Assembly (NCBI GenBank): GCA_023395555.1
Contig: JAEWYQ010000032.1
Coordinates: 16,323 to 80,322, forward strand
Length of the DNA: 64,000 nt
Direction: 5' to 3'
Origin: Bacillota bacterium
Lineage (GTDB): Bacteria > Bacillota > Clostridia > Lachnospirales > Lachnospiraceae
Numbering within the stretch: the stretch's first letter is position 1; every line of letters begins with the position of its first letter. The notes beneath the pieces are model-generated. The model worked only from the letters and a program-made list of their open reading frames with translations, was not told the DNA's origin and made no database searches. Positions 54,567 through 63,036 of this stretch are shown piece after piece. The translations under genes were made by a program, and so were the position numbers.

Positions 54567-56243
54567 ATGAGTACTCAGATGGACGAGAAGATAAGAGTTG
54601 AGATTAACGGAAAGGAATACGAATATCCGGCCAACACTTCCCTTCTGGCAATCAGCAGGGATTTTCAGAAGGATCACAATGATCAGATCATACTGGCCTT
54701 TGTCAATCATAAGCTGCGGGAGCTTTTCAAGAGAGTGACGGCATCCTGCTCCATTCGTTTTGTAACCACAGCCGAGAGCGCGGGGCAGAAGACCTATCAA
54801 AGAGGAATGATTCTGATGATGCTCAAGGCCTTCTATGCGGAATTCGGAAATGAGAACGTGGACGAGGTATCCGTGGAATATATGGTTGGCAATGGGCTTT
54901 ACTGTGATTACAAGGGGAAGGAGCCCCTGACGCAGGAACGCCTGCTTGCGGTCAAGAGAAGAATGGAGGAGCTGGTCCGCAGGGATATCCCCTTTATGAA
55001 ACGCAGCATTGGAACAGATGATGCAATCGAATTATTCCGCTGCTATCGCATGCATGATAAAGAGAAGCTGTTTCGTTACCGCCGTGTTTCCAAGGCTAAT
55101 ATCTATAGTCTGGACGGCTTTGAGGATTATTATTACGGCTATATGCCGCCAAGCTCCGGCATGTTAAAATACTTTGATCTGCTCCAATACGATGAAGGTT
55201 TTCTGCTCCTGCTGCCGGAGAGGAAGAACCCTGCTGTTGTAGCCCCGTTCATTCCCCAGCCCAAGCTCTATGAGACCTTAAAGGAATCGAACATCTGGGG
55301 CCAGATGATGGACATTCGCAATGTGGGAGCGTTAAATGACGTGATCTCCAGCGGCAGCCTGAACGAATTAATTCTGGTACAGGAAGCGCTTCAGGAGAAG
55401 AAAATCAGCGATATTGCGGAAATGATAAAACGTGCCGAAGGAAAGAAATTCATCATGATTGCCGGGCCGTCCTCCTCGGGAAAAACTACCTTTTCCCACC
55501 GTCTCAGCATTCAGCTGAAGGCACACGGCCTAAAGCCTCATCCTATCGCAGTGGATAATTATTTTGTTGACCGGGAGAAGACTCCCCTGGATGAGGATGG
55601 GAATTATAATTTTGAATCCCTGTATGCCATTGACCTGGAGCAGTTCAACCAGGATATGACCTCCTTGCTGAAGGGCGAGACGGTGCAGATACCGGAATTT
55701 AACTTCGTATCCGGGCGGAGGGAATATAAAGGGAATTTTCTGAAGCTGGGACCGGAGGATATTCTGGTGATTGAGGGAATTCACGGCTTAAATGACGCAT
55801 TATCTTATTCCCTTCCGAGAGAAAGCAAATTTAAGATCTATATCAGCGCTCTGACGCAGTTAAATATTGATGAACACAATCGGATTCCTACCACGGACGG
55901 GCGGCTGCTGCGGAGAATGGTAAGGGATGCCAGAACCAGAGGGGCTTCCGCTCAGAAGACAATTTCCATGTGGCCCTCCGTAAGGCGCGGCGAGGACGAG
56001 AACATCTTCCCCTTCCAGGAGGATGCGGATGTTATGTTCAATTCGGCTCTGATATACGAATTATCGATACTGAAACAGTATGCCGAACCGATCTTATTTG
56101 GAATTGACAGAAATTGCGAGGAATATGTGGAAGCAAAACGGCTTCTGAAGTTTCTGGACTATTTCATCGGGGCTCCCAGCGAAACGGTGCCGAAGAATTC
56201 CATTTTGAAAGAATTTGTAGGAGGAAGCTGTTTTAAGGTATGA
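54567..56243 (+). CDS. TGS-domain nucleoside/uridine kinase-like protein
   Basis: 558 residues from ATG 54567 (AGAGGTAGA upstream). An N-terminal TGS-like domain (about 1-75), a middle ThrRS second-additional-like segment (VEYMVGNGLYCDY, KRRMEELVRRDIPF), then a P-loop kinase from about 290: Walker A GPSSSGKTTFSHRL, PIAVDNYFVDREKTP, VIEGIHGLND, and RTRGASAQKTISMWPSVRRGE. It is expected to phosphorylate uridine or another nucleoside. Its stop codon touches the 3' end of rnpB on the other strand. Confidence 0.88.
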   Translation: MSTQMDEKIRVEINGKEYEYPANTSLLAISRDFQKDHNDQIILAFVNHKLRELFKRVTASCSIRFVTTAESAGQKTYQRGMILMMLKAFYAEFGNENVDEVSVEYMVGNGLYCDYKGKEPLTQERLLAVKRRMEELVRRDIPFMKRSIGTDDAIELFRCYRMHDKEKLFRYRRVSKANIYSLDGFEDYYYGYMPPSSGMLKYFDLLQYDEGFLLLLPERKNPAVVAPFIPQPKLYETLKESNIWGQMMDIRNVGALNDVISSGSLNELILVQEALQEKKISDIAEMIKRAEGKKFIMIAGPSSSGKTTFSHRLSIQLKAHGLKPHPIAVDNYFVDREKTPLDEDGNYNFESLYAIDLEQFNQDMTSLLKGETVQIPEFNFVSGRREYKGNFLKLGPEDILVIEGIHGLNDALSYSLPRESKFKIYISALTQLNIDEHNRIPTTDGRLLRRMVRDARTRGASAQKTISMWPSVRRGEDENIFPFQEDADVMFNSALIYELSILKQYAEPILFGIDRNCEEYVEAKRLLKFLDYFIGAPSETVPKNSILKEFVGGSCFKV

Positions 56244-56634
56244 GCAGCACGATAAGCCGGGTTCTGTCTCGGATGATCATCTATCTTGACCGCATGTTAC
56301 CATGCGGCTCCAGTACCGCCTGCGCATACTTGCGCATGCGCAGGCAGATACTACGCGACCTACCCTAAAGCACGGCGGGCAACCGTATCGCTTTATGTTC
56401 GGTCTTGCTTCGAGTGGGGTTTACATAGCCCCTACTGTTACCAGTAAGGCGGTGGTCTCTTAAGCCACCTTTCCACCCTTACCGGAAAATACGTTGTTAA
56501 CAACGTATTTTCCGGCGGTATATTTCTGTTGCACTGGCCTTGGAGTCGCCTCCACCGGACGTTATCCGGCACTCTGCCCTGCGAAGCCCGGACTTTCCTC
56601 ACCTTATAAGGCGCGATCACCTGTGCTGCTCACA
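56242..56634 (-). ncRNA. rnpB: RNase P RNA, class A
   Basis: Read on the minus strand. P1 is formed by GAGCAGCAC near the 5' end (56631-56623) and GTGCTGCTC at the 3' end (56250-56242). Conserved blocks: GAGGAAAGTCCGGGC (P4/CR-I), ACAGAAATATACCGCC, the AGGGTAGGTCGCG block and the 3' ACAGAACCCGGCTTAT. P12 is a perfect 34-base palindrome (see findings). Catalytic RNA that matures tRNA 5' ends. The exact ends are estimated from P1 and the promoter. Confidence 0.95.
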
Positions 56635-57961: not shown

Positions 57962-59066
57962 ATACAAAAGTATCAGACTGGATAACAGCATATTTAAAAG
58001 CTTTCGTTTTGAGATTGTCCTATATAGTATTCTGAGTCTGCTGTACATGCTGCTGACCATTGGGATACTTTATATCGGTGCCTATATACTGCTGCGAAAA
58101 AGCATCCAGGAGCTCTCAGGAGCCTCGGCAGCGCTTGTAATGATTATAACAGCGGCAGTGGGAATAGTGCTGTTCATCTTTTATTTCCTGCTGCTTACAA
58201 AGAAATTCATAAACTATATTACGGAAATGATAGATGGAATTAATCAGATATCCCAGGGGAATTTCGGAAACCGGATAGAAATCAACAATGAGGACGAATT
58301 TGCCCTGCTGGCGGAGAAGCTGAATCAGATGGCTGATAATATCAAAGAGATAATGGAAAATGAGCGGCGGAGTGAATATGCCAAGAATGAGCTGATCACC
58401 AGTGTTGCCCATGATCTTCGTACGCCCCTCACCTCCATTATCGGATACCTGGATCTGGTATCCTCCAAGGAACTGTCGGAGGACACCCAGATGAAATACA
58501 TCGGCATCGCCTACAGCAAGTCGAAGCGTCTGGAAAAGCTCATCGAGGATTTGTTCACTTATACAAAGTTCAATTTTGGCGAGGTTAAAGCGGAATTTAC
58601 CGAGGTGGACATGGTAAAGCTGCTCAACCAGCTGGTGGATGAATTCTATCCCAGCTTTTCAGAGTATAATCTGGAATACGAATTCCGGACCATGACGGGC
58701 GCTGCCGTAATCATGGCGGACGGATACCTTCTGTCCAGGGCGTTTGCCAACCTGATCAGCAATGCCATCAAGTACGGCCGTGAGGGCAGAAAGATCATAA
58801 TACAGCTCATAAAGCAGGAAACCGATGTGACCATAAAGGTGACTAATTTTGGGGACATCATCCCTCCGGAGGATCTAAAGCGCATCTTCCAACGCTTCTA
58901 CCGGATTGAATCCTCGCGCTCCAGTGAGACAGGGGGAAGCGGCCTCGGTCTTGCCATTGCCCAGAGTATAATCGGGATGCATGGAGGTACCATTGAGGCT
59001 CAGAGTGACATGGAAGGAACGGTATTTACTGTCGTCCTTCCCAGCCAATTGCAAGTGACTTTATAA
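57951..59066 (+). CDS. membrane sensor histidine kinase (VanS-like)
   Basis: 371 residues, TTG start inside the response regulator gene. Two membrane helices (about 22-48 and 61-83) with only a short external loop, then HAMP (about 84-137), HisKA with His154 (SVAHDLRTPLTSIIGYL), and HATPase_c (LISNAIKYG; GGSGLGLAIAQSII). The small extracellular loop suggests intramembrane sensing, as in BceS/VanS-like kinases. Its end overlaps the tail of the convergent AP2 gene by six bases. Confidence 0.9.
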   Translation: MKNKYKSIRLDNSIFKSFRFEIVLYSILSLLYMLLTIGILYIGAYILLRKSIQELSGASAALVMIITAAVGIVLFIFYFLLLTKKFINYITEMIDGINQISQGNFGNRIEINNEDEFALLAEKLNQMADNIKEIMENERRSEYAKNELITSVAHDLRTPLTSIIGYLDLVSSKELSEDTQMKYIGIAYSKSKRLEKLIEDLFTYTKFNFGEVKAEFTEVDMVKLLNQLVDEFYPSFSEYNLEYEFRTMTGAAVIMADGYLLSRAFANLISNAIKYGREGRKIIIQLIKQETDVTIKVTNFGDIIPPEDLKRIFQRFYRIESSRSSETGGSGLGLAIAQSIIGMHGGTIEAQSDMEGTVFTVVLPSQLQVTL

Positions 59067-60002
59067 ACCGCCGTAACCGATCTTGCTGTGGGGCTGTCCT
59101 TTACCCAGCCCCTCCGCATAATGAATCAATTTCTTGGAGATCCGAAGCTTTTGAAAAACAGAGGCATAAGTAATAGCATCCATCCCCTCTATAAAATTCT
59201 GAGGAAAGTTCTTTTTCATTCCCTTATTTCTTAATAAGAGAGCCGCCTTATTATAAGCGATGGCCGCCTCTTCCGCGCTCTGATACCGCCCAATCAAATA
59301 ATCCCCGTTAATATGTATTTTGGCAAGATAGCAGGGCATCCCCTTAAAAGAAATCTGCGTTACTCCGTGATAAGGATTAATTACTTCTATATTATAATAA
59401 CTATAATCCGTATTGTCTCCGTTAGCAAAGACATAATCCTTTCCGGGAACGGCATAGTTCTTAATGCCGTACCGGGACAGGATATTCACCTGCATCCCGT
59501 AATCCGATACAAAGAGATGCCCTCCCCGCCTCATGATCTTATGATGGGCATAATAAAAAAGATCCTCGGCATCAAACCGCAGGCAGGTATTCTGATCCAG
59601 ATAATAAAGGAAATATCTTTTCTTAAGATAAATCGGATTCTTAAAGTACATGCCGTTATCCCGGAAATTAATCAAAACCACCCATTTATGAAAGGAAAGA
59701 GCGCAGTCATCAGGATAGTCTCCGACTGCCGGACCGCCTGCATCCCTAAAACAGATTGGGCTGTCCGTGCCGGTTCCGGGGACTGCAGTGTCTGTGCTGT
59801 CAGCGGCTGTGCCGCTGAAGCAGGGGGCTCCGGAAGCCTCCTCTCTCAGATTCAGTGCCGCCTGTGCCTCCCGGTAAGCCCGTCCGGCTTCCGCTTCAGT
59901 GGCATAGCTCCCCAGACTGATGTGCTTGCCCAGATAAGTAATACTTGCCCGATAATATACCTTCCCGGCCTTTGTGCAGGCCAGATAGACTCCAGGTAAC
60001 AT
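59061..60002 (-). CDS. AP2-domain protein with degenerate HNH-like centre
   Basis: 313 residues. Residues 4-50 (GVYLACTKAGKVYYRASI, LGKHISLGSYATEAEAGRAY) and 212-268 (GVTQISFKGMPCYLAKIHI, IGRYQSAEEAAIAYNKAALLL, then NFP) each read like AP2/ERF DNA-binding domains: a beta sheet, then a helix starting EEA.AY. Between them residues 105-210 look like the HNH segment of HNH-AP2 homing endonucleases; the block at 187-208 keeps NGD and the downstream N-x-E-V-I pattern, but the catalytic His positions are occupied by Phe-Ala. Residues 52-100 are a low-complexity linker. I infer a DNA-binding protein derived from a homing endonuclease, with no cleavage activity. Function unknown. Confidence 0.65.
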   Translation of the reverse strand: MLPGVYLACTKAGKVYYRASITYLGKHISLGSYATEAEAGRAYREAQAALNLREEASGAPCFSGTAADSTDTAVPGTGTDSPICFRDAGGPAVGDYPDDCALSFHKWVVLINFRDNGMYFKNPIYLKKRYFLYYLDQNTCLRFDAEDLFYYAHHKIMRRGGHLFVSDYGMQVNILSRYGIKNYAVPGKDYVFANGDNTDYSYYNIEVINPYHGVTQISFKGMPCYLAKIHINGDYLIGRYQSAEEAAIAYNKAALLLRNKGMKKNFPQNFIEGMDAITYASVFQKLRISKKLIHYAEGLGKGQPHSKIGYGGL

Positions 60003-60022
60003 AAACTCACCGCCTTTTAACC

Positions 60023-60051
60023 AATATAGCAGAAATGGAATATCGGTGCAA
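60023..60051 (-). promoter_or_regulatory. promoter of the AP2 gene
   Basis: Minus strand TTGCAC (60051-60046), 17-base spacer, TATATT (60028-60023); the start codon is about 20 bases downstream, giving a very short leader. Confidence 0.65.
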
Positions 60052-60354
60052 GGATCCTATTTCCAATAATGAGAGCTGAAACGACAAAAAATATATTAAC
60101 AATTTATTACGGTCCATTTGTGTAGAATGACCCATTTGGAGTTCCAAAAACGTACTAAAGCAGTAGAATATGTATAAACATTTGAAAAAGCAGTAAAAAA
60201 ATTTAATATATCGTTAATAAAATGTTAAATTTAGCTTGTGCAAAATAAATGAAAATATTGCGGCTGAAATGGAATAATATTGTTGCATTTTTCCTATACT
60301 GGTAAATAGAGGAGCTCTGTGATCGTGGTTTATAACGAAATTGAAGTTGCGTTA
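60052..60354. other. AT-rich intergenic spacer
   Basis: About 300 bases, strongly AT-rich, between the AP2 gene promoter and the SleB-like gene promoter. I see no gene or clear structure in it. Confidence 0.4.
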
Positions 60355-60420
60355 TTGACACAAAATCATCAGTTGCCTATAATGCTGATATCATTACCAA
60401 ACGTTCCATTAAATGGAAAC
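60355..60420 (+). promoter_or_regulatory. promoter and operator-like palindrome of the SleB-like gene
   Basis: TTGACA (60355-60360), 17-base spacer, TATAAT (60378-60383). A palindrome TTCCAT-TAA-ATGGAA at 60404-60418 lies some 15 bases after the expected start and could be a repressor site. Confidence 0.7.
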
Positions 60421-60447: not shown

Positions 60448-61449
60448 ATGTCATTAATAAATATGTTTCTTCAAAAGAGAAAAATGCATGAAAGCCAATA
60501 TGGCTTTGTAATGGTTTTCATTGCATATGCATTATCCGTAATGATGCTGTTTGTAGGCTCCGATGTATTTTACAATATTAATTCGGCAGCGGCAGGGATA
60601 AGCACAACAGATGAAGAGACAGCAACGAAGAAGAAGGAGGACCAGCCCGTTCCGGAACCTGCAAAGATTACGGCAAGAGTCCTTCAGTCAAAGGAATTAT
60701 ATCCTTATGCCATGGCAGAACTATCTGGAATGGGCCTTGGAAGGATGGGGCAGGAACAACAGCTTACCGGCGATTTATACCCGGAAGAATTTATCCCCGC
60801 CATGGGATCCGTCAGCAGTATAGTTGCACTGCCAAAGACCGATCAGAATGAGATCTACAGCTTATCTGCGGATTTATCAGGAGAGGGAAATGAAACAGCG
60901 GAGGATGCCGGGAGCGCCGCGGTAAGTGAAACAGCAGCGATAACCGAAACAGCAGAGGCCGCCGGAAAAGCAGGAACGAGTGAAAAAGCAGAAACGAACG
61001 AAAAAGCAGGGAAGGCCGGGAAAGAGGCTAAAGAGGCAAAGAGTGAATATGTCTATGATATAACCGAAAAAGAAATTGGTATGCTGCAGCGGATTGTTCA
61101 GGCGGAAGCCGGGGGCGAGGATGCCATAGGCAAGATATTGATCGTTAACGTAATCATGAACCGAATTGCCGATAAGAACTTTCCGGATACTGTGGAGGAT
61201 GTAATATTCCAAAACAAGGACGGCGAGTATCAGTTCTCCCCCATCGAGAATAAGAGCTATTGGTCCGTGAAGGTGTCGGATAAAACCAAGAAGGCAGTAG
61301 CACGCGCACTGAAGGGTGAGGATCATTCTGAGGGCGCCCTGTATTTCATGGCGAGAAAGATAACCTCATCGCGTAACGCCAAGTGGTTTGACAGGAATCT
61401 GGTATGGCTGTTCAAGCATGGCGGCCACGAGTTCTACAAGGAAAAGTAA
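60448..61449 (+). CDS. SleB-like cell wall hydrolase
   Basis: 333 residues: an N-terminal membrane anchor (GFVMVFIAYALSVMMLFVGS), a low-complexity stalk (about 130-205) rich in Ala, Glu, Lys and Gly with repeated ETAE/KAGK words, and a C-terminal Hydrolase_2 domain (about 210-333; MLQRIVQAEAGGEDAIGKI with the catalytic Glu, VMNRI-type NVIMNRIADKNFP, FSPIENKSYW, GALYFMA). SleB/CwlJ enzymes are lytic transglycosylases in spore germination or vegetative wall turnover; the anchor suggests it works outside the membrane. AAGAGGAAAAA precedes the ATG. Confidence 0.87.
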   Translation: MSLINMFLQKRKMHESQYGFVMVFIAYALSVMMLFVGSDVFYNINSAAAGISTTDEETATKKKEDQPVPEPAKITARVLQSKELYPYAMAELSGMGLGRMGQEQQLTGDLYPEEFIPAMGSVSSIVALPKTDQNEIYSLSADLSGEGNETAEDAGSAAVSETAAITETAEAAGKAGTSEKAETNEKAGKAGKEAKEAKSEYVYDITEKEIGMLQRIVQAEAGGEDAIGKILIVNVIMNRIADKNFPDTVEDVIFQNKDGEYQFSPIENKSYWSVKVSDKTKKAVARALKGEDHSEGALYFMARKITSSRNAKWFDRNLVWLFKHGGHEFYKEK

Positions 61450-61495: not shown

Positions 61496-61530
61496 ACTTG
61501 AAACTTCAAGTAAAGGGGATCAAAACAAAT

Positions 61531-63036
61531 ATGAACCTAATGTACAGGAGCACAAGAGATTCAAGCAGAAGGGTAACCGCATCCCAGGCTGTGTTACAGG
61601 GATTGGCCCCGGACGGAGGCTTATTCGTTCCGGAGACGATCCCGGTTTTTCAAAAAACAGTAAAAGAGCTGTCCGAGTTGGATTACCGTGAGACGGCTTA
61701 TGAGGTAATGAGACTGTTTTTGACTGATTATACCGAAGAGGAGCTGAAGGATTGTATTGCCAGTGCCTATGACGCCAAATTCGATACACCGGAGATCGCT
61801 CCTTTACGGAAGGCAGGCGAAGCATGCTTTAATAAAGTATGGTATCTGGAGCTGTTTCACGGAGCTACGATTGCGTTTAAGGATATGGCCTTATCCATCC
61901 TGCCTCATCTGCTGACCAAGGCGGCCAGAAAAAACAAGGTAGAGGAGGAGATTGTCATATTGACCGCTACCTCCGGAGATACAGGAAAGGCGGCATTGTC
62001 CGGTTTTGCCGATGTGGAGGGAACCAGAATCATCGTGTTCTACCCCAAGGATGGTGTCAGCCCCGTCCAGGAGAAGCAGATGGTGACCCAAAAGGGAGAG
62101 AATACCCATGTCATCGGAATTCGCGGCAATTTTGACGACGCCCAGACAGGGGTTAAGAATATATTCAGTGACAAGGATCTGGCTGCCCGTCTGAAGGCCG
62201 GCGGGTATCAGTTCTCCTCCGCCAATTCCATCAACATCGGCAGGTTGGTGCCCCAAATTGTATACTATGTCTATTCTTATATTTCTTTATATAAGAGAGG
62301 AGAGCTGGCTGAGGGAGAGAAGATTAATTTTGTCGTTCCCACCGGTAATTTTGGCAACATCCTTGCCGCGTATTATGCGAAGTCCATGGGACTCCCCATT
62401 GATAAGCTGATCTGCGCGTCCAATGAGAACAAGGTGTTATATGATTTCTTTAAAACCGGCTGCTACGACAGGAACCGGGAGTTCATATTAACAGAATCAC
62501 CCTCCATGGACATTCTGGTATCCAGCAACCTGGAGCGCCTTATTTATCACATTGCCGACGGAGATTCGGACAGAACAGCGGAGCTGATGAAGGCGTTGTC
62601 TGCAAGGGGCGCTTATGATATTACGCCGCAGATGAAGGCCAATCTGGCCGGCTTTTTCGGCGGATGGGCTTCCGGGGCAGAGACCAGGGAAGCTATTGCC
62701 AAGGCATATAAAGAGCATGGATATGTCATAGACACCCATACCGCGGTTGCCGCCGGCGTATACGATAAGTATGCGGCAGAAACAGGGGATACCACGAAGA
62801 CGGTAATTGTGTCCACTGCCAGCCCGTACAAATTCGGCTCCAGTGTTCTGGAAGCCCTTGGCCTCCCGGAGATCCCGAAGGACGATTATGAGCAGGCGCT
62901 GCTGCTGGCCGAAGTATCGAAGACGGAGATTCCGAAGGCGGTGGAGGAGCTACGCATGGCCCCGGTACGGCATACCAAGGTATGTGATACGGAAGAAATG
63001 CAGGAAATGGTGAAAGAAATTTTGAAAATAATCTAA
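61531..63036 (+). CDS. thrC: threonine synthase
   Basis: 501 residues from ATG 61531 (AAAGGGG some 12 bases upstream; ATG at 61540 is the alternative). PLP enzyme converting O-phosphohomoserine to threonine. Typical N-terminus (YRSTRD...LQGLAPDGGLFVPE), PLP lysine K117 in GATIAFKDMALS, ATSGDTGKAAL, GNFGNILAAYYA phosphate loop, and TESPSMDILVSSNLERLIY. Length and pattern match the longer, E. coli/clostridial-type enzyme. Confidence 0.95.
   Translation: MNLMYRSTRDSSRRVTASQAVLQGLAPDGGLFVPETIPVFQKTVKELSELDYRETAYEVMRLFLTDYTEEELKDCIASAYDAKFDTPEIAPLRKAGEACFNKVWYLELFHGATIAFKDMALSILPHLLTKAARKNKVEEEIVILTATSGDTGKAALSGFADVEGTRIIVFYPKDGVSPVQEKQMVTQKGENTHVIGIRGNFDDAQTGVKNIFSDKDLAARLKAGGYQFSSANSINIGRLVPQIVYYVYSYISLYKRGELAEGEKINFVVPTGNFGNILAAYYAKSMGLPIDKLICASNENKVLYDFFKTGCYDRNREFILTESPSMDILVSSNLERLIYHIADGDSDRTAELMKALSARGAYDITPQMKANLAGFFGGWASGAETREAIAKAYKEHGYVIDTHTAVAAGVYDKYAAETGDTTKTVIVSTASPYKFGSSVLEALGLPEIPKDDYEQALLLAEVSKTEIPKAVEELRMAPVRHTKVCDTEEMQEMVKEILKII

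Follow-up and report, generated by a model that had tools for sequence, protein, structure and literature searches.

Can a homing endonuclease that has lost the residues for cutting DNA be kept by a bacterium as a regulator? The question is raised by one gene, at 59061..60002 on the minus strand of a 64,000-nucleotide stretch of a Lachnospiraceae genome (Bacillota bacterium, assembly GCA_023395555.1, contig JAEWYQ010000032.1, positions 16,323 to 80,322 of the forward strand), which we call the window. The gene encodes 313 amino acids from an ATG at 60002, and a first-pass annotation, made from the sequence alone, had taken the product for a probable domesticated HNH-AP2 homing endonuclease. 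That view is supported by profiles, structures, residue counts, distribution, selection, and locus; "transcription factor" is the part that we infer. We put at about 0.58 the probability that the protein is a domesticated, catalytically dead HNH-AP2 homing endonuclease that would now act as a site-specific DNA-binding local regulator of the divergent genes and of its own gene.

Relationship to HNH-AP2 endonucleases

The protein begins with an AP2-like domain of the form beta-beta-beta-alpha (residues 1-50, more closely about 4-50; 59853..60002, minus strand, as are the other domains). It continues through a linker (residues 51-103, 59694..59852) into an HNH-like centre that carries DYVFANGDNTDYSYYNIEVIN (residues 104-212, 59367..59693) and then a C-terminal AP2-like domain (residues 213-262, 59217..59366). 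This layout, two AP2-like domains flanking an HNH-like centre, had been noticed in the first pass, and it is confirmed both in the sequence and in a structural model. Of 6782 candidates in a database search with the window protein, 5719 were homologous at E ≤ 1e-3. The top 120 of these 5719 are mostly of 260-290 residues and mostly unnamed or "hypothetical protein"; one is also named AP2/ERF domain-containing. The window protein is longer than its relatives because of a long insertion in the linker, which recurs, among 30 aligned rows (the window protein and 29 of the best 120 listed homologues), only in P0001 of Anaerotaenia torta, the closest protein among the matches listed (97% identical). 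At that identity, the window probably derives from Anaerotaenia or from a near relative of this genus. A different, shorter insertion stands at the same place in P0069.

Two further alignments underlie the comparisons that follow. The family is represented by 97 rows, the window protein and 96 of the 119 distinct proteins that were left of 126 family matches once identical ones were removed, and all counts out of 97 refer to these. The comparators are 29 intact HNH-AP2 proteins, taken from the 98 matches obtained with the query L127, itself an HNH-AP2 protein encoded in a genome that also holds the dead-HNH family (G001); they match 1u3e, a solved HNH homing endonuclease (E 1.6e-7).

The similarity to AP2 and HNH profiles that the earlier reading implied is borne out in part. 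PHROG 99, "HNH endonuclease," matches the window protein at 7.5e-12, with the N-terminal AP2 part as its best stretch, and hhalign relates the family to the 29 intact proteins with a probability of 96.3% (E 1.8e-9), collinearly over the centre and AP2, with the lead-in to HNH aligning as well. On the other side, Pfam AP2 gives the window protein 13.1 bits (E 0.12), below its curated cut-off of 33.3, and matches 41 of the 97 members at E ≤ 1 (best 2.9e-7); a search of NCBIfam with the window protein gave no match. With AP2 cut off, the centre alone aligns with the intact HNH-AP2 proteins over 76 columns, in order and with one gap, and it scores 21.6, more than any of 100 column shuffles (best 18.1) or a reversed control (15.6). 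Matches of the 97-row alignment to profiles of designed TIM barrels were judged to be artefacts, no single stretch having passed alone.

The structure prediction suggested in the first pass gave both AP2 folds, a three-stranded sheet and a helix, twice. This AlphaFold2 model, built with the 97-member alignment, has a pLDDT of 89.5; an earlier prediction from 30 close relatives had a poor centre (pLDDT 66.8), which the larger alignment improved. Linker residues 59-80 and 83-86 have pLDDT values below 50, and much of the insertion is disordered in the model. Compared with folds in the PDB, the model finds plant AP2 domains at the head of the list as the nearest solved structures. Among viral structure models, 27 match at E ≤ 1e-3 (best 1.5e-9), the named ones being mostly HNH endonucleases, and the alignments to these span about 350 columns, gaps included. 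Profile comparison, structure comparison, and, as described below, residue counts and distribution thus support both the descent of the family from an HNH-AP2 homing endonuclease and the loss of nuclease residues.

Loss of the nuclease residues

Seven residues, Asp73, His74, Asp81, Asn82, Asn86, Asn95, and Asn98, are present in all 29 comparators. The pair Asp73-His74 aligns with family positions 191-192, which are V191 and F192 in the window protein. Asp is found at position 191 in none of the 97 members, and at position 192, 96 members have Phe and one has Gln, so that the absence of the catalytic His, noticed at first in a single protein, holds family-wide (His in 0/97). Asn82 falls on position 200 (Y200 in the window), where Phe (57 members), Tyr (26), Leu (13), and Met (1) occur and Asn never does. 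Asn95 lies in a seven-residue gap of the family alignment, and Asn98 stands opposite N209 (Asn in 93/97), an isolated residue, with a gap on either side, that is not securely placed. Other residues of the comparators are retained: Asn76 (present in 28 of 29), Asp81, and Asn86 persist as N194, D199, and N204, which, together with D189, are identical in 97/97 rows.

Since the frame residues are retained and the catalytic positions are replaced, the HNH frame has outlived its active site. Judged by these residues, the centre is predicted, with support from every family member aligned, to be catalytically dead; in none of the 97 is an intact HNH motif found, the Asp, His, and Asn positions being replaced in all. 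No intermediate in which two AP2 domains surround an intact HNH was noticed among matches at E ≤ 1e-6 in 398 genomes of the phylum and 381 of the class, residue-by-residue inspection having covered the members already aligned.

The dead centre is nonetheless under selection. The median dN/dS was 0.10 over 12 pairs whose dS lay between 0.1 and 2; these pairs share members and so are not independent. For residues 96-212, dN/dS was 0.03 to 0.085, below the whole-protein value in 12/12 pairs and, where computable, also below that of either AP2 domain, with one exception (the C-terminal AP2 domain in L086/L087). The centre is therefore more constrained than the protein as a whole and is not decaying.

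Distribution and chromosomal locus

A homing endonuclease would be expected to occur patchily and on mobile DNA, in phages, introns, and prophages, and this is not how the family is distributed. Genomes were drawn from the family, order, class, and phylum of Mobilitalea sibirica (G001, the genome of locus L004), and the gene was found in 81 of 200, 27 of 96, 13 of 391, and 5 of 398 of them, respectively; when the class was drawn again, with some overlap, and searched with a broader profile, 12 of 381 genomes were positive. Eleven of the 13 class positives recur in the order or family draws, the others being G355 and G390. Three of 80 named loci carry titles of other phyla (L014, L031, and L057); for L014 and L031, mis-binning is likely, although unproven, because thrC adjoins the gene there. 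In these samples, the family occurs only, or almost only, in one bacterial order. The survey of copies proposed in the first pass found one match per genome in nearly all positive genomes. The exceptions in the family draw are G407, with a 45-residue scrap, and G490, with two matches that overlap on the profile and that may represent two copies. Separately, an extra weak match (E about 0.005) was seen in two of six genomes, in 161-residue frames and at the HNH-to-AP2 junction of the profile (G004 C1:829873-830013 and G006 C228:12383-12523).

Among 72,556 plasmids, there was no match. Among 50,697 phage records, two match, neither of them annotated and both titled "Bacteriophage sp." (MT836856.1 and MT837267.1; L229 and L230); they look like bacterial chromosome because one carries thrC and leuD and the other leuC and leuD. 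Three viral contigs match: in L226, leuCD adjoins the gene and phage-like genes lie farther out (by eye), L227 gives a match of 43 residues, and L228 encodes a phage HNH-AP2 protein that is intact.

The locus itself is conserved on one side. In the window, the gene is flanked on its upstream, divergent side by a cell wall hydrolase gene (PF07486 Hydrolase_2, "sleB"; 60448..61449, plus strand) and the threonine synthase gene thrC (61498..63036, plus strand). We compared 80 related loci, the best of 566, which lean toward the window; one, L032, is absent from the neighbour table, its AP2 open reading frame (ORF) having been lost to an overlapping ORF pick, and the table skips unclustered ORFs of under 110 residues. 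A divergent sleB is the gene next upstream in 63 of 79 loci; thrC takes this place in 6 and another gene in 10. By tblastn, a divergent sleB lies within 1.4 kb in 59 of the 76 loci with enough sequence, and either that or thrC within 3.5 kb is found in 71 of 76. A second sample, in which 34 of 41 loci entered once identical proteins were removed, gave 26 of 32 by the same measure (sleB 17, thrC only 9, neither 6). A conserved divergent neighbour, and with it a candidate regulatory target, is thus present in both samples. Where sleB is missing, the gene often abuts thrC, either divergently or, in L031, L033, L060, and L091, co-directionally ahead of it.

The other side varies, with a histidine kinase gene immediately downstream in 15 of 75 loci, leuD in 11, and other genes elsewhere. 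The tail overlap with a two-component system on which the first-pass annotation remarked is real in the window (6 bp, 59061-59066). The arrangement is not conserved, the constant side being that of sleB and thrC, and the two-component system, which we rejected as a constant partner, is one of many neighbours, as the variable downstream side indicates.

Protein distances correlate with ThrC distances (r = 0.51 over 62 loci including the window; 0 of 1000 permutations reach this value), as vertical inheritance predicts. Purifying selection, copy number, the conserved locus, and distances that follow thrC together support the conclusion that the gene is chromosomally fixed and domesticated.

A sister form, found in five order-level genomes (L122, L123, L124, L125, and L126), shares the dead centre and is divergent, with 340-352 residues and an additional AP2-like domain, its third, at the C-terminus. 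Its neighbours differ, with neither sleB nor thrC nearby; a transketolase gene lies divergently upstream in L122 and L124 and, judged by upstream sequence, in L123, and L125 and L126 share another neighbour (names by eye). L128-L133 combine repeated CxCG-type motifs with a C-terminal AP2-like domain and show no HNH by eye, and they belong to another AP2 family. Elsewhere in the window, RNase P RNA of bacterial class A (RF00010, 278.8 bits; 56237-56632, minus strand) lies between a PRK-domain gene and a RelB-type antitoxin gene (PF04221; 56820-57092, plus strand), beside which no toxin ORF was noticed.

The intergenic region

Between the AP2 gene and sleB, the window contains the elements of two predicted divergent promoters. 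On the side of the AP2 gene, reading by eye finds a Shine-Dalgarno-like AGGCGGTGA (60007-60015, minus strand) and a promoter-like TTGCAC-N17-TATATT (60023..60051, minus strand), which the consensus scan did not report; its TTGC and most of its -10 box are conserved in seven aligned sequences, the window and six relatives. On the side of sleB, a consensus sigma-70 promoter, TTGACA-N17-TATAAT (60355..60383, plus strand), is largely conserved in the seven. The region between them holds a palindromic element A, TTCTACTGCTTTAGTA, of the form TWCTA-N6-TAGWA (60153..60168, minus strand), and, 41 bp from it, element B, TTCTACACAAATGGAC (60112..60127, minus strand), whose right arm is degenerate in the window. 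The distance of 41 bp corresponds to about four helical turns. Three TTAAC-type direct repeats with an 11-bp period (60202..60231, minus strand) are conserved in relatives. They are candidate sites of the OmpR-family/response-regulator type, which we take them to resemble; they are present also in L011, a locus without nearby two-component genes.

The palindrome was scored in 35 loci (group 1) that were chosen by nearness to the window and after the matches had been seen, so that the counts describe this clade, whose members share descent. With a threshold of 11.75 bits, the 99th percentile of shuffled regions, it is found in 26 of 35 loci when each is left out of its own matrix and in 28 of 35 with the full matrix. 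Half of these 28 loci (14) have a second copy of at least 2 bits at exactly +41; at each of the other offsets tested, from 17 to 70 in both directions, fewer than 4 loci have one. The likelihood of the motif was 156.6 compared with 28.0 for shuffles. We tentatively, and at slightly less than even odds, regard elements A and B as sites of the AP2 protein.

Two other repeats were seen at related loci. In a largely leuD-linked clade, a palindrome like GTATTTTTT...AAAAAATAC lies immediately downstream of the AP2 gene's -10 box, close to where transcription probably starts (L028, L029, L043, L051, and L059; weaker in L025, L046, L061, and L066), and it is possibly a clade-specific autoregulatory site. 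In L004, the palindromic element is separated from the AP2 gene by a long inverted repeat, GATGATATACATTGCTAT...ATAGCAATGTATATCATC, which lies some 150-210 bp ahead of that gene and is perhaps a small mobile element.

A proposed mechanism and its alternatives

If the favored reading is right, the two AP2 domains would each grip one half-site, and the still-folded, noncutting HNH centre would set the spacing of the AP2 domains or serve as a contact surface. The protein would act locally, from the intergenic region common to its own gene and the divergent (sleB-)thrC genes, and it would tune the expression of both; repression and activation are not told apart. The parts of this proposal differ in strength. 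The AP2 domains very probably both bind DNA, and the protein, by a modest balance of the evidence, regulates the adjacent divergent genes and itself.

Several findings weigh against this proposal. Control upstream regions from the same loci had motif likelihoods per sequence of 3.6-6.1, compared with 3.5-5.2 for the region here, and shared ancestry therefore explains part of the motif likelihood; the control values are themselves high partly because coding sequence and shared ancestry are included. As likelihood alone proves nothing, the argument for an operator is made from palindromy, the repeated element, and the fixed spacing together. In 80 other loci, no match reaches 11.75 bits (best 9.9), and separate motif searches there did not find the TWCTA-N6-TAGWA palindrome; the motifs that they returned were those of an extended -10 promoter and of palindromes rich in A and T. 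In L004 and L007, the palindrome lies about 300 bp from sleB (starts by eye) and 464 and 303 bp, respectively, from the AP2 gene, a spacing that suggests that another protein may own it; over all listed loci, the distance is 92-464 bp to the AP2 gene and 152-504 bp to the start of the sleB ORF. A large regulon was considered and rejected, as TTCTAC-N5-TAGTA gave 108 matches in 16 genomes, the control level set by 112 for the reversed pattern. With respect to the protein, TM-scores for the matches to viral structures are low, at 0.09-0.39 over the first 27, and the profile comparison of the centre alone gives a probability of just 11%, a weak match.

These findings bear on four alternatives. 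The palindromic pair could belong to another regulator of sleB, a response regulator or a repressor, with the AP2 protein acting elsewhere. The spacing in L004 and L007, where the distance to sleB is kept and the AP2-side spacers are long, favors this, and the TTAAC repeats beside the palindrome likewise suggest further regulators. We consider it somewhat unlikely. Among 30 sleB loci, eight lack the AP2 gene, and the closest of these, L188, has no 11.75-bit match in its intergenic region (an 18.2-bit match lies inside the gene upstream), although the point is weakened by L191, another locus with sleB and no AP2 gene, where an 11.9-bit match lies beyond sleB, and by the AP2-bearing sleB loci, most of them distant, of which only 5 of 22 have any such match. 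Alternatively, the domesticated, dead protein could be a global or architectural DNA binder that leaves its neighbours unregulated, its synteny with sleB and thrC being inherited order. The precedent is WhiA (DUF199), a bacterial regulator whose homing-endonuclease domain has lost its metal-binding and catalytic residues and whose regulon has many targets (PMC3781837). The palindrome is missing in distant clades in which the protein and the locus are conserved, and synteny on the thrC side can be plain inheritance. Yet the other flank differs widely where the sleB/thrC side is mostly kept, and there is no genome-wide excess of the palindrome, though the true site may be another. On balance, a global role of this kind seems unlikely.

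The two remaining alternatives concern the centre. The invariance of D189, N194, D199, and N204 could mean that the protein is still, or again, an active nuclease, selfish or defensive, that cuts by way of these residues; with the Asp, His, and Asn that characterize HNH-AP2 proteins replaced in every member, mostly a single match per genome, a conserved locus, and no plasmid match, this seems very improbable. It is also very doubtful that the centre is unrelated to HNH and that the AP2 pair surrounds some other domain. In favor of such a domain are the 11% probability of the centre alone and the results for Pfam HNH_3, which matches 12 of the 97 members at E ≤ 1 (best 0.0098), a count similar to those of unrelated families such as Phage_FRD3 (14 members, best 0.0023). 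The list of fold matches likewise includes no solved HNH structure, although that comparison barely covered the centre. Opposing it are the collinear 76-column match, which beat every shuffle and the reversed control, and the long alignments to viral HNH endonuclease models.

Relation to known systems

Regulators made from homing endonucleases are a kind already known: the plant AP2 factors and WhiA have been read in this way (PMC10448857 and PMC3781837). Plant AP2 factors are presumed to have descended from HNH-AP2 endonucleases (Magnani 2004, cited by PMC10448857). The AP2/ERF factors ERF1, WRI1, TEM1, and ERF096 have the AP2 fold in common with the family, which differs from them in keeping a dead, strongly constrained HNH-like centre. 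To our knowledge, plants kept only the AP2 part. Compared with HNH-AP2 homing endonucleases (PHROG 99; HNH_3 PF13392 and AP2 PF00847), which share the HNH-like core followed by AP2, the family has its Asp, His, and central Asn replaced and Asn95 in a gap, and it has an extra N-terminal AP2 domain and a fixed chromosomal locus. WhiA combines a degenerate LAGLIDADG domain, of another nuclease class, with a helix-turn-helix, and it binds DNA by this helix-turn-helix, which true homing endonucleases lack, whereas the family would use AP2 domains like those of its ancestors. CapR, a repressor of the PLE satellite, arose from the DNA-binding domains of T5orf172 homing endonucleases (PMC10448857); there, too, parts of a homing endonuclease became a regulator, in this case a phage-satellite protein from a different nuclease family. 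In the open-licence literature, outside which most subscription journals lie, we found no report of this family or of another bacterial chromosomal regulator from the HNH-AP2 class, and the term AP2 is absent from the main text of one review (PMC8987985).

Whether the family represents an independent bacterial conversion of an HNH-AP2 nuclease into an AP2 regulator, with a dead, folded, and selected core and a palindromic operator pair between divergent promoters, is a possibility to which we assign not quite even chances. The steps of the plant AP2 transition have been lost, and such a transition becomes testable in a bacterial family whose HNH-like centre is dead and still folded, whose locus is fixed, and for which there is a candidate operator. 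If the conversion is real, the family would stand as a bacterial case beside WhiA, drawn from another class of nuclease, a function would be provided for a family of thousands of proteins, and these bacteria would preserve a stage of the conversion that plants have lost.

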